Under the pieces are notes generated by a model, which searched no databases, was not told the origin of the DNA, and worked only from the letters and a program-made list of their open reading frames with translations. From Fulvivirga ligni (GTDB lineage: Bacteria > Bacteroidota > Bacteroidia > Cytophagales > Cyclobacteriaceae): a DNA stretch of 64,000 nt. Shown here piece by piece: positions 4,437-59,181 of the stretch. Position 1 is the first letter of the stretch, and every line of letters begins with the position of its first letter. The DNA is taken from contig NZ_CP089979.1 of NCBI RefSeq assembly GCF_021389935.1, positions 3,453,001 through 3,517,000 of the forward strand, written 5' to 3'. Both the position numbers and the translations under genes were made by a program.

Positions 4437-4808
4437 GTAATGAGCTGTGAGACAAGAGATATGAGATGATTAGTAAATAGTATCGAGTAAATAGATGTGA
4501 GATATGAGAATCCAATAACCAATAACAAATAACTAATAACTCAATAACCAACTAGCAACGAGTAGTGAGTAAATAGATATTAGAAAAAGAATCAAATAAC
4601 GAATAACATAATAACCAATAACCAACTAGTAAATAGTATAGAGTAAATAGATGTGAGACGTGAGATATGAGAATCCAATAACTAATAACCAATAACTAAT
4701 AACCAATAACCTAATAACTCAATAACCCAATAACTCAATAACCAACTAGATAACAGAAAAAAGAATCAAACAACCAATAACCCAATAACCAATAACCAAT
4801 AAAAAAAA
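4437..4808 (+). repeat. low-complexity heptamer repeat region between ccoG and ccoH
   Basis: A gene-free stretch built of two alternating ingredients: runs of the near-heptamer CAATAAC/CCAATAA and a longer spacer resembling GAGTAAATAGATGTGAGA. At least three imperfect units are visible, starting near 4464, 4556 and 4624, and several heptamer runs end in CAACTAG. The plus strand of the heptamer runs is almost free of G. Because seven is not a multiple of three, the TAA inside the heptamer occurs in every forward frame, so no translation can cross it. It lies inside what is otherwise an operon. No promoter, hairpin or ORF of note was recognised. Confidence 0.85.
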
Positions 4809-5253: not shown

Positions 5254-5952
5254 ATGCAGAGTTGGGTTGTATCAGGATTTTTAGCCGGTTTTTTAGGCAG
5301 CGTACATTGTGCTGTTATGTGTGGGCCACTGTCCATGGCGGTAAATGGCCAGCGTAACTTTTTGCAGCAGCTTTTCTATAACAGCGGCCGACTGATCACC
5401 TACATAATTCTGGGCATAGCCTTTGGCTTTATGGGCCGCGGACTCTCCGTATTTGGCTGGCAGCAGGGCCTTTCCATAGCCATGGGCGTGGTGGTAATAC
5501 TCTTCACCCTATTCCCCAGATACCAGCACAAGCTTTTGCAAACACCTATGCACCAGCGCATCATACAGCCCCTGCGACGACAGTTGCAGAAGGTGCTGAA
5601 AACCAAAAACCTATTCACCTACCTGATCATTGGCATGCTGAATGGCCTGCTACCCTGCGGCTTGGTATACATGGTACTTTCCGTAAGTGTAGCCACCGGC
5701 ACCATTGAAGGCGGAGCACTGGTAATGTTGGGCTTTGGCCTCGGCACCTGGCCCATGATGCTGGGCATAACCAAACTGTTTACCCTGATAAAAACACAAA
5801 AGGCCATTTCCTCCCAATATATCATCCCATCACTAGCCCTGATCATGGGCACCCTACTCATCCTTAGAGGCCTCTCTCTCGACATCCCATACGTGAGCCC
5901 AGTGATCTCCTCCTTAGGTTTGGATTGGGGAATTAGCGGGTGTGGGATTTAA
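5254..5952 (+). CDS. TauE/SafE-like (heavy-metal transport associated) membrane protein
   Basis: Six-helix integral membrane protein of the sulfite exporter TauE/SafE superfamily, subgroup with an N-terminal HCAVMCGP motif and a central GLLPCGLVYMVLS motif, both visible. This subgroup is a standard neighbour of fixGH in Bacteroidota and has been linked to copper handling for cbb3 oxidase; the transported substrate here is unknown. The gene is 232 residues, complete, and closes the cco locus. Its distal half is C-rich at third codon positions, like the end of ccoG. A copy of the three-member dispersed repeat begins at its stop codon. Confidence 0.85.
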   Translation: MQSWVVSGFLAGFLGSVHCAVMCGPLSMAVNGQRNFLQQLFYNSGRLITYIILGIAFGFMGRGLSVFGWQQGLSIAMGVVVILFTLFPRYQHKLLQTPMHQRIIQPLRRQLQKVLKTKNLFTYLIIGMLNGLLPCGLVYMVLSVSVATGTIEGGALVMLGFGLGTWPMMLGITKLFTLIKTQKAISSQYIIPSLALIMGTLLILRGLSLDIPYVSPVISSLGLDWGISGCGI

Positions 5953-6018
5953 GAGGTTTAATAATATTCCGTTTTTCATGTGATATTTTTTATTGAAATT
6001 ATTAAGTTAAGGGATTGG
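5951..6018 (+). repeat. dispersed repeat R, copy 1 (partial)
   Basis: Shares about 37 consecutive bases, centred on TGATATTTTTTATTGAAA (5981-5998), with two fuller copies at 9029-9158 and 9683-9812. This copy begins at the stop codon of the upstream gene and loses similarity after about 6018. All three copies have the same orientation, and each sits just after one gene and before the next. Confidence 0.8.
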
Positions 6019-6162
6019 GAATTATCTGATGCTGAATGTTTATAAACGTTTGTAAGTATTTATAACTGGCTATAATTCTGATAATTAATGACTTAAAGAA
6101 TTTTCATCTGGGTATTGGGTATTGTCTATACTCGGATGTTAAGCTTCATTAAAAGAAACTGA

Positions 6163-8887: not shown

Positions 8888-9028
8888 AAGCCCTTGCTAT
8901 TCGTAGTCTTCAACCCCGAATTTTCCAATGATTACTAGTATCTCCGACACGGTATTAAATGTCAAATTTTACATTTCTGTCATTAAATCCGGCACAAGCG
9001 CCGCTGGTGCCGCTAACTAGTAGAATAT

Positions 9029-9158
9029 AAAGGTTTGATATTATTTAATCTTTCATGTAATATTTTTTATTGAAATTATTAAGTTAAGGCATTCAGAAGT
9101 GTCTGCATTGAATTGAAAATAGAACAGAAGGAGTTTTATAATAAAGTTTCAGCCAAGT
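9029..9158 (+). repeat. dispersed repeat R, copy 2
   Basis: About 130 bp, closely matching 9683-9812 over its full length and 5951-6018 in the core. Starts AAAGGTTTGATATTATTT and ends near CAGCCAAGT. It occupies the gap 8888-9206 between the frameshifted lipoprotein and the next lipoprotein gene. Upstream of it, 8918-9000 shows weaker similarity to 9857-9950, suggesting a second, more diverged duplicated segment. Confidence 0.88.
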
Positions 9159-9206
9159 TATGGAGGGCCATATTCAACAAAAAAACTACCCAGTAAATGA
9201 AAGAAC

Positions 9207-9638: not shown

Positions 9639-9682
9639 AATAGTCTTATTATAACAGATGCCAACTGCTAACCAATAAATGT

Positions 9683-9812
9683 AAAGGTTTGATATTATTT
9701 CATCTTTCATGTGATATTTTTTATTGAAATTATTAAGTTAATGAATTGGAAAGTGCCTACGTTGACTTGAGAATAGATCAGAAAGAGTTTTATAATAAAG
9801 TTGCAGCCAAGT
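9683..9812 (+). repeat. dispersed repeat R, copy 3
   Basis: Direct repeat of 9029-9158, about 130 bp, with scattered substitutions and no obvious indel. It is followed at once by the left half of hairpin repeat H (9822). The 417-bp gap 9639-10055 holds this repeat, the half hairpin and a stretch with weak similarity to 8918-9000; a 71-codon open frame at 9839-10054 has no coding character. Confidence 0.88.
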
Positions 9813-9821
9813 AATTTTTCC

Positions 9822-57190: not shown

Positions 57191-57306
57191 GAACCATCAT
57201 TCCGGAATCATGTAGCGTAGCGAAATGATATCCGGAATCTTACTGTTCGGATGCAGCGGCTGATCAGCGAGATTCCGGCTCTCCACTGCGTTGCGGCCGG
57301 AATGAC
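57191..57306 (+). repeat. 117-bp palindromic element P, copy A
   Basis: Starts GAACCATCATTCCGG and ends GGCCGGAATGACG. Three internal stem regions: TCCGGAATCAT/ATGATATCCGGA around a GTAGCGTAGCGAA loop; CCGGAATCTT/AGATTCCGG; and CCGGC/GCCGG; with outer CATTCCGG/CCGGAATG arms. Followed by two further partial repeats of the 3' arm, the last at 57352-57381. Fills the gap 57156-57427 downstream of the GIY-YIG gene. Confidence 0.9.
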
Positions 57307-57427
57307 GCTGTGGGCTCCCCACTGCATTGCGGCTGGCATGACGGGCCTTGGCTCTCCGCTACGCTTCGGCCGGAATGACGGTTGGCAAGGGACGGGGTTG
57401 TTTTAGAATGTTTTTTATGCTCTTGGT

Positions 57428-57730
57428 TCACTTCATATCACCAACCTCATCATATAAATCTCTTAAGTCAGGATTGATTGTTCTTATCAAGTCGAATTTC
57501 CATTGGCGTTTCCACTTTTTGAGTTGTTTCTCTCTGGCTATGGCCGATACAATGTCTGGTAGAAATTCAAAGTAGACCAAGTCGGTGCATCTATATCTTT
57601 TGGTAAATTGTGAGCCTTCTCCATGCCTGTGCTGCCATGATCTGGCGGAGAGGTTAGATGTTACACCAATGTACAAAACGGTTCTGCTTTTATTACTCAC
57701 TATATAGACATAACCACCTTTTACTCTCAT
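57428..57730 (-). CDS. single-domain GIY-YIG endonuclease, copy 1
   Basis: 100 residues, a complete GIY-YIG module of the UPF0213/YhbQ type: GGYVYIV near the N-terminus, VLYIGVTSNL with Y20-I-G22, R30, H34 and the metal-binding E67 in IAREKQLKKWKR. Such small nucleases are often multicopy. It differs from the copy at 58698 at 8 of 100 positions. It is flanked on both sides by copies of palindromic element P. Confidence 0.92.
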   Translation of the reverse strand: MRVKGGYVYIVSNKSRTVLYIGVTSNLSARSWQHRHGEGSQFTKRYRCTDLVYFEFLPDIVSAIAREKQLKKWKRQWKFDLIRTINPDLRDLYDEVGDMK

Positions 57731-57794
57731 TACAGAATTTAGTGAAAATAGAATTGGATTTAAAGAGAAATAGATGGTTTGCGGTTCATGTCGA

Positions 57795-57911
57795 GAACCG
57801 TCATTCCGGAATTATGTAGCGTAGCGAAATAATATCCGGAATCTTACTGTTCAGTCTCTGCTAGCGAGCGGTAAGATTCCGGCTCTCCACTGCGTTGCGG
57901 CCGGAATGACG
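57795..57911 (+). repeat. 117-bp palindromic element P, copy B
   Basis: Same limits as copy A (GAACCGTCATTCCGG to GGCCGGAATGACG). In the first stem the pair is AATTAT with AATAAT, where copies A and D have AATCAT with ATGAT, a compensating change. The central loop sequence differs from the other copies. It lies in the gap 57731-58061, just upstream of GIY-YIG copy 1. Confidence 0.9.
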
Positions 57912-58061
57912 CTCTTGGCTCTTCGCTGCGACTGGAACGGCGTGTTGTCGAAGAAATTTTAATCATAACCCTACCTCATTTTAATTCCTTTTATTTACCT
58001 TTTCAAATTAATTATAAGTACAGTTATGTGCTGGTGCACAATAGCATAGATAAAATAAAAA

Positions 58062-58439
58062 ATGGCTGATAAAGAAAAACTTTACGAAACACTGGGTGAA
58101 CTACTTTTTGTAATTGCCAAGGCTGACGGAATTATTCAAAATGAGGAGAGAGACTCTCTGAACGAACTTTTAAAAAACCATGCCTGGGCTTCTGAGATTA
58201 AATGGTCTTTTAACTACGAGGAGTCAAAGCAAAGCTCTGTAGAAGAAACTTATAATAAGGTGATTAACTTCTGCCACAGCTATGGACCTACTCCAGAATA
58301 TAATGAATTCATTGACGCCATGAAGTTTGTAGCCGCTTCTTCACAAGGTATCGATCAGGACGAATCCGAAATTATCAATTCATTTTCCAGCGATCTTATT
58401 GAAAGATTTCAAAAGGATATGGATAAGTTGATGGGGTAA
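58062..58439 (+). CDS. TerB-like family protein
   Basis: 125 residues, all-helical. LFVIAKADGIIQNEERD and GIDQDESEIINSF are the two acidic TerB signature helices, which may bind metal; the family was first named for tellurite resistance but most members are unrelated to it. Isolated between the two GIY-YIG/element P units. Confidence 0.75.
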   Translation: MADKEKLYETLGELLFVIAKADGIIQNEERDSLNELLKNHAWASEIKWSFNYEESKQSSVEETYNKVINFCHSYGPTPEYNEFIDAMKFVAASSQGIDQDESEIINSFSSDLIERFQKDMDKLMG

Positions 58440-58463
58440 TATTTTATCAGCGGTTCTATTAAA

Positions 58464-58580
58464 GAATCGTTATTCCGGAATTATGTAGCGCAGCGAAATA
58501 ATATCCGGAATCTTACTGTTCGGGCACAGCGGCTGATCAGCAAGATTCCGGCTCTCCGCTACGCTTCGGCCGGAATGACG
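58464..58580 (+). repeat. 117-bp palindromic element P, copy C
   Basis: GAATCGTTATTCCGG to GGCCGGAATGACG. First stem AATTAT/AATAAT with loop GTAGCGCAGCG; third segment CCGCTACGC is complementary to the first loop, allowing one long hairpin as an alternative fold. Downstream of GIY-YIG copy 2. Confidence 0.9.
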
Positions 58581-58697
58581 CTGTGGGTGTTTCACTACGT
58601 TAAAAGGTATGACCTGCAGGTTCACCACTGCGGCTGGAAGACGATTTATACAGTATATGCTTTCCTTGGTCTATAATAATCATGAGCAATAGTCATA

Positions 58698-59000
58698 TCA
58701 CTTCATATCCCCAACCTCATTATATAAATCTCTTAAGTCAGTGTTGATTGTTCTTATCAAGTCGAATTTCCATTGACGTTTCCATTTTTTGAGTTGTTTT
58801 TCTCTGGCTATGGCCGATACAATGTCTGGTAGAAATTCAAAGTAGACCAAGTCGGTGCATTTGTATCTTTTGGTAAATTGTGAGCCTTCTACATGCTTAT
58901 GCTGCCATGACCTAGAGGCGAGGTTGGATGTTACACCAATGTACAGAACGGTTCTGCTTTTATTACTCACTATATAGACATAACCACCTTTTACTTTCAT
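58698..59000 (-). CDS. single-domain GIY-YIG endonuclease, copy 2
   Basis: 100 residues, 92 identical to copy 1, with the same active-site residues (Y20-I-G22, R30, E67) intact. The similarity at DNA level continues past the start codon through the 65-bp leader into element P copy D and stops just beyond the stop codon, so a block of about 485 bp was duplicated or moved. Confidence 0.92.
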   Translation of the reverse strand: MKVKGGYVYIVSNKSRTVLYIGVTSNLASRSWQHKHVEGSQFTKRYKCTDLVYFEFLPDIVSAIAREKQLKKWKRQWKFDLIRTINTDLRDLYNEVGDMK

Positions 59001-59064
59001 TACAGAATTTAGTGAAAATAGAATTGGATTTAAAGAGAAATGGATGGTTTGCAGTTCATGTCAA

Positions 59065-59181
59065 GAACCGTCATTCCGGAATCATGTAGCGCAGCGAAAT
59101 GATATCCGGAATCTTACAGTTCGGATGCAGAGGCTGATCAGCAAGATTCCGGCTCTCCGCTACGCGTCGGCCGGAATGACG
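59065..59181 (+). repeat. 117-bp palindromic element P, copy D
   Basis: GAACCGTCATTCCGG to GGCCGGAATGACG, first stem AATCAT/ATGAT, loop GTAGCGCAGCG. A further 3' arm piece CCGGAATGACG follows near 59200. The gap 59001-59318 is otherwise empty. Confidence 0.9.

Follow-up and report, generated by a model that had tools for sequence, protein, structure and literature searches.

What holds a small nuclease gene between two copies of the same short repeat? The question arises in Fulvivirga ligni, where two GIY-YIG genes, giy1 and giy2, are accompanied by copies of an element termed P. Di Nocera et al. 2013 (PMC3733652), in the parts of that paper considered here, state that CGTC-tagged REPs 'apparently lack a dedicated transposase', and so leave a wider question: is there an enzyme that deals with these repeats? 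An answer would account for a class of intergenic repeats that is widespread in bacteria (GTCATTGCGAG..., GTCATTCCCGC...) and would yield a compact nuclease in many natural pairings with its target.

Organization of the locus

We analyzed a 64-kb window, the whole stretch of DNA under study (genome positions 3453001-3517000), along which the order is A-giy1-B, a TerB-like ORF and C-giy2-D (Table 1). As originally predicted, each of the two genes is enclosed by P copies in the same orientation (P-giy1-P and P-giy2-P), and their proteins are 92% identical. The four copies show pairwise identities of 82.8-91.6%, all on the plus strand. Their number was confirmed, and the lengths first given as 116, 117, 117 and 117 bp became 117 bp for each copy by re-drawn bounds. 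The TerB-like ORF is probably a bystander.

Table 1. Features of the two giy modules in the window.
Feature	Position in window	Strand	Remarks
Element P, copy A	57191..57307	+	5' tag decayed to CATC; 3' half intact
Two extra 3' half-like repeats between A and giy1	57313..57380	+	57313-57343 (74% to reference) and 57350-57380
giy1	57428..57730	-	100-aa single-domain GIY-YIG nuclease; residues 72-74 are KWK
giy1 leader, gene start to element B	57731..57794	-	95.3% identical to giy2 leader
Element P, copy B	57795..57911	+	half-hairpins 57799-57842 and 57876-57911, both tags intact
TerB-like 125-aa ORF between the two modules	58062..58439	+	Pfam PF05099, E 1.6e-4, below curated cut-off
Element P, copy C	58464..58580	+	5' tag decayed to CGTT; 3' half tag intact
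giy2	58698..59000	-	second 100-aa GIY-YIG gene, 92% identical to giy1; residues 72-74 are KWK
giy2 leader, gene start to element D	59001..59064	-	95.3% identical to giy1 leader
Element P, copy D	59065..59181	+	half-hairpins 59069-59112 and 59146-59181, both tags intact

A duplication of gene, leader and following element as one block of about 485 bp had also been proposed. A constant offset of 1270 does run over 484 bp, but only the gene and leader look recently duplicated: the genes are 93.7% and the leaders 95.3% identical, against 82.8% for elements B and D and 51.5% for the spacers on the A-giy side. Since B and D agree at only 82.8%, the following element was not simply included in a single recent duplication.

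The giy ORFs match Pfam PF01541 (GIY-YIG) with an E of 8e-16. Across 23 aligned sequences, Y9, Y20, G22, R30, H34, E67 and N86 are invariant, and we take these positions to be the catalytic residues of the GIY-YIG fold. In the AlphaFold2 model (mean pLDDT 90), residue 72 ends the helix holding Glu67, and residues 73-74 lie between that helix and the next. A fold search against solved structures returned no match at E 0.001 or better, the first being UPF0213 1zg2 (E 1.3e-3) and Slx1. Five GIY-YIG matches in the genome exceed the Pfam cut-off, and giy1 and giy2 are the only two of the repeat-flanked family. Both genes sit between ORFs; profile matches to phage homing endonucleases were weak (E 0.0016-0.0024), and introns were searched for with Rfam. 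A known defence protein was ruled out by PADLOC, which assigned 0 families to four proteins.

Structure of element P

Element P carries four copies of ATTCCGG or its complement and can therefore fold either as one outer palindrome or as two hairpins. Among 27 own-genome copies (26 distinct), the two-hairpin model contained 29 cells with compensatory double changes, a count reached by 0/500 shuffles (mean 7.7). Paired cells amounted to 93.6% for the two-hairpin model versus 88.3% for the outer palindrome, which had 0 double changes in the same copies. Two further counts for the half-hairpins were unremarkable, namely six pairs with a double change (reached by 43/500 shuffles) and 12 further pair types (reached by 427/500). 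The covarying 117-bp palindrome of the original prediction was thus not borne out: covariation is confined to two separate half-hairpins, and the outer palindrome was ruled out as a selected structure.

Some copies join an ATGCCGG half to an ACTCCGG half, so each half keeps its own stem. From the half-hairpin covariation and these mixed copies, P is best seen as a pair of hairpins bearing outward CGTC-type tags. The stems are 8 bp, and the loops are 24 and 16 nt. An unpaired CGTC (TGTC, CCTC) tag precedes an AT-initial stem in both halves of B and D and in the 3' halves of A and C. Compared with shuffles, single-strand DNA folding was stronger for B (z -5.6), C (-4.4) and D (-3.0), and weakly so for A (-1.7). 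Rfam ruled out P as a known RNA family, with three matches that were all below gathering (E 0.41-0.54).

Distribution of P in the genome

The 6.52-Mb single-contig genome contains at least 30 near-full P copies, many of them clustered; 40 candidates were scored, hence the total may exceed 30. Four of the 30 counted copies adjoin family genes and 26/30 have no giy-family gene alongside, whereas both family genes of the genome are enclosed by P. The whole-genome search proposed with the original prediction therefore gave a divided picture, in which P is spread genome-wide and the association, viewed from the gene side, is near-universal.

Remnants of giy at other P sites were ruled out in 14 other P or P-like stretches of the genome (best E 2.7). 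Solitary 5' P-like halves (47-52-nt matches) with no 3' half were seen at genome positions 1832468-1837264, 3441641 and 3445263, some of them adjoining further TCATGCCGGAATT copies.

Association of the gene family with tagged hairpins in other genomes

Protein relatives were sought in 58 genomes of the same genus, family and order, of which 33 had a match. Many of the fetched loci carry direct repeats flanking the gene on both sides, and four congeners (G002, G005, G006 and G009) have P-like matches beside the gene, oriented relative to it as in the window, and repeats on each side of it. In this own-group set, with the window copies included and four weak matches (L051-L054) left out, tagged halves lay within 350 bp in 22/27 loci and on both sides in 18/27.

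A protein-pattern scan of GTDB contigs yielded 286 relatives, and the best 80, chosen on protein sequence alone, were kept. By record title, these 80 of 286 span at least nine phyla, with members from Bacteroidota, Cyanobacteria, Nitrospirota, Chloroflexi, Spirochaetes, Omnitrophota, Proteobacteria, Campylobacterota, candidate-phyla bacteria and others. A tag plus hairpin was detected within 350 bp on any side in 76/80 loci and on both sides in 51/80, compared with 71/290 and 4/290 control ORFs from the same loci. The hairpin settings behind these counts (stem 5, loop 3-50) were picked after viewing the best-80 data and then held for later sets. Earlier, stricter settings missed ATTGC-type halves. 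The first gave 19/76 for any side and 8/76 for both (controls 38/320 and 2/320), and the second 32/80 and 9/80 (controls 29/290 and 1/290). An 8-mer test trained on 40 loci found a top word within 250 bp in 28/40 held-out loci versus 45/302 control ORFs, and on both sides in 19/40 versus 2/302; these controls were also used in picking words.

With the settings fixed, we scored a named set of 14/34 plasmid-collection records from Neisseria, Planktothrix, rhizobia, Spirosoma, Aeromonas, Azospirillum, Photobacterium and sphingomonads. Hairpins were found on any side in 11/14 loci and on both in 8/14 (control ORFs 3/22 and 2/22), and the three missed loci (3/14) have, by eye, hairpins with altered tags. 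On a Planktothrix plasmid (L145, 3989-4273), a family gene has an MmeI-type restriction gene on one side and DISARM drmA on the other.

The same settings were applied to 69 further Bacteroidia genes, 60 of which had a hairpin on any side and 50 on both, against 3/19 and 0/19 control ORFs. This set drew on 68 loci (L159-L187 without L172, plus 40 regions from the match list), L158 and L172 being excluded as repeats of the window and of L047. Seventy-one genes were found there, and the two within 150 bp of a locus end were dropped. Among the 69 scored are the truncated second match of L215 and the L178 fragment; minus two fragments, 58 of 67 genes had a hairpin on any side and 48 on both. Of 20 additional paralogues, most of them divergent, 14 had a hairpin on any side and 5 on both; genes closer than 100 bp to the end of a locus were skipped. 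Around other small GIY-YIG genes, mostly from related genomes and one from the F. ligni genome (22/23 scored), the same search found hairpins on any side in 1/22 and on both in 0/22. At L188, L193 and L195, other small GIY-YIG genes occur as tandem duplicates with no flanking tagged hairpins.

At the genome level, 58 of 295 Bacteroidia genomes carry some repeat type in four or more copies; a family-profile match was present in 50/58 of these versus 127/237 others (E 1e-8 or better, Fisher p 2.5e-6), with a profile that admits some related subfamilies. In 8/58 repeat-bearing genomes there was no family match at E 1e-8 or better; one of the eight, G193, has two small GIY-YIG ORFs. The complete, one-contig Bacteroidia genome G097 carries 400 halves (GTCATTGCGAG) and only two GIY matches, in long ORFs of 609 and 460 aa; no repeat-associated GIY gene was found. 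It provides a natural case for the persistence of such repeats.

Covariation between enzyme and repeat

The residue-base table covered 169 loci with detected stems, matches under 80 aa being left out. The best predictors were residue 72 for stem base 3 and residue 73 for base 4 (z 44), while stem base 5 was predicted about equally by residues 74, 73 and 72. A simple rule, by which Gly73 goes with a purine at stem base 4 and other residues with a pyrimidine, held in 108/109 discovery and 58/60 validation loci. A purine accompanied Gly73 in 59/60 discovery and 20/20 validation loci, and a residue other than Gly73 in 0/49 and 2/40. Removal of one validation protein identical to a discovery protein left purines in 19/19 (Gly73) and 2/40 (non-Gly73); at 80% non-redundancy over both sets, the counts were 61/62 and 2/81. 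By base, Gly73 was paired with 75 G, 4 A and 1 C, and Trp73 with 59 C, 13 T and 2 G, the two G loci having ATGGC stems.

Multi-locus genomes provided a within-genome test. In 5/16 of them (G009, G011, G012, G028 and G066), Gly73 and non-Gly73 genes with stems occur together; all five Gly73 genes have a purine stem, and their non-Gly73 partners mostly a pyrimidine. The exceptions are one mixed gene in G011 and one ATTGC among the five halves at the KWK gene of G028. A tree built without the code columns has 22 changes of residue 73 and 23 of base 4. The protein tree is poorly supported, and its starred branches hold only 2 independent pairs, agreeing in 1.9 of 2 on average; with branch support ignored, 19-21 pairs agree and at most 1 opposes (five pairings). 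In many bacteria, related enzymes are encoded next to repeats that match them, a pattern suggesting that three residues near the active site let the enzyme read these repeats.

Proposed function

On the sequence evidence, we consider it probable that giy is a site-specific nuclease with the tagged hairpin P as its cognate, read through residues 72-74, and that cutting leads to recombination and matched divergence. The small GIY-YIG endonuclease encoded by giy1 and giy2 would have the P hairpin pair as its target. Recognition of the tagged hairpin would take place through residues 72-74, which follow the invariant Lys71, at the end of the Glu67 helix and in the turn after it. The enzyme would cut at the hairpin, most likely while this is extruded or in single-stranded form, as in replication, transformation or repair. 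Gene-adjacent copies would keep enzyme and target together, and dispersed copies would be targets in trans. Cuts may promote recombination between copies, leading to local duplication of gene and repeats, occasional joint movement and divergence as matched pairs.

The idea that the nuclease acts on its own repeats, raised in the original prediction, gains strong indirect support from the cross-phyla association, which does not extend to other small GIY-YIG genes, and from the covariation. The layout, its generality and the covariation within half-hairpins and between residue and base are observed; binding, cleavage, single-strand preference and spread are what we infer from these patterns.

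A broader reading, on which our judgement is evenly divided, is that the giy family is the missing dedicated enzyme of CGTC-tagged repeats across bacteria. Residues 72-74 would then specify stem bases 3-5 (AGS with ATTGC, KWK with ATTCC), so that several matched pairs could coexist per genome and be predicted from sequence. The near-universal gene-repeat association, together with the base-by-residue covariation, makes the CGTC-repeat enzyme question directly testable.

Alternative explanations

P-giy-P could instead be a true mobile element, as REPtrons and REPINs are, with a transposase-like GIY-YIG enzyme and P as its non-autonomous derivative; we regard this as unlikely. The autonomous form would be half-REP/giy/half-REP (~450 bp) or dimer-giy-dimer. 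Judged by the nearest halves, 23/80 loci have the gene inside one inverted pair and 13/80 have it between two. The distribution of modules also speaks for it. Azospirillum lipoferum 4B has a dimer-giy-dimer block between sufB and sufC, whereas the sufB-sufC gap is 87, 91 and 129 bp in three relatives lacking the module (A. oryzae, A. ramasamyi and B510). The module occupies one orthologous place in G005 and G006, after a metH-like gene (a label assigned in this analysis). The F. ligni genome conserves the counterpart of that gene (86% identical) and its upstream neighbours, with no giy or P within 1.5 kb beyond it, and the counterparts in G008, G011 and G014 have no giy/P module. Modules at non-orthologous sites amount to presence/absence variation, which fits mobility, and the mobility itself is something we infer.

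However, the check for empty sites in relatives, also proposed at the outset, produced such variation and no target-site duplication or precise empty site at the loci compared. Synteny at the metH-like locus was seen on one side, and the left neighbour gene of the window had no homologue in 14 congeners. In the F. ligni genome, giy is present as just two neighbouring copies. P number differs between the orthologous loci of G005 and G006 (four and three by BLAST matches), and local recombination among direct copies of P accounts for the window equally well. GIY-YIG enzymes hydrolyse DNA and are not known to have a strand-transfer chemistry, which also counts against a mobile element.

It is highly improbable that CGTC-type repeats merely pile up in intergenic space, where a small gene tolerates them. 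Such repeats do occur away from the gene and in genomes without it, and a half-element lies near 71/290 control ORFs, but flanking on both sides separates the family (51/80 versus 4/290; 50/69 versus 0/19 control ORFs and 0/22 other small GIY-YIG genes), and the residue-base covariation would be left unexplained.

The least credible account has RAYT-type Y1 transposases mobilising the repeats in trans with the GIY-YIG gene as passenger: six Y1_Tnp matches exist in the genome, but P-type halves lie within 350 bp of 0/6, although one of them, L272, has two unrelated ACCCC halves, and no CGTC repeat is reported beside tyrosine transposase genes in the parts of Di Nocera et al. 2013 considered here (PMC3733652).

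Relation to known systems

The cognate-nuclease reading that we favour has its closest likeness in Neisseria. A homologue in N. gonorrhoeae, whose gene is flanked by CGTCATTCCCGC hairpins, shares 48% identity with the window protein over 89 aa (E 2e-27). Neisserial Ssn is reportedly, from a 2025 report in Nature Communications, a site-specific single-stranded nuclease of the GIY-YIG superfamily with a repeated target. We take the repeat-flanked gonococcal homologue to be Ssn, and the giy family to include it. The neisserial protein and giy are both small single-domain GIY-YIG enzymes with conserved catalytic positions, and both have K-W after Lys71 and ATTCC stems. The cognate repeat has many genomic copies (for Neisseria, reportedly), with P as the probable target of giy on the grounds of covariation. 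They differ in that the giy repeat is a long-loop 117-bp double hairpin and the activity of giy is predicted. We therefore group the locus with Ssn.

With the CGTC-tagged REPs, as described in the parts of Di Nocera et al. 2013 considered here (PMC3733652), P shares the CGTC/TGTC tag, the AT-initial stem, inverted pairs and heterodimers. The published loops are 4-5 nt with stems of 8-9 bp, whereas the P loops are 24 and 16 nt, so P is CGTC-like and is not assigned to the four families published there. Azospirillum lipoferum, Novosphingobium aromaticivorans and Sinorhizobium meliloti, which are CGTC-REP species in the same parts of that paper, have a giy-family gene.

REPtrons and REPINs with their RAYTs resemble the locus in that a nuclease gene lies between short palindromes of its own and further copies of the repeat are dispersed. 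The RAYT, however, has the HUH Y1 fold and a GTAG tag, whereas giy has the GIY-YIG fold, a CGTC tag and a mobility that is putative. The REP/RAYT analogy drawn in the original prediction fits in layout, but no P-type half adjoins (within 350 bp) any of the six Y1_Tnp matches.

By sequence, the nearest solved relatives are small GIY-YIG proteins of UPF0213 (PDB 1zg2 and 1ywl), 1zg2 also being first by fold. In contrast to the giy family, other small GIY-YIG genes rarely had repeats nearby (1/22 on any side, 0/22 on both), in a set that is not UPF0213-specific. Among the papers listed in searches of largely open-access literature, preprints excepted, no title or abstract opening linked GIY-YIG genes to REP-type repeats. 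Two things may be new: the code at residues 72-74, and the tie of this family to CGTC-type repeats in different phyla.

Other repeats in the window

Far from the giy genes, a 138-nt repeat occurs in three copies at window positions 5947-6084, 9024-9161 and 9678-9815 (62% and 88% identity to the reference). A-T-rich repeats with units such as CCAATAACTAATAAC occupy window positions 4471-4799.
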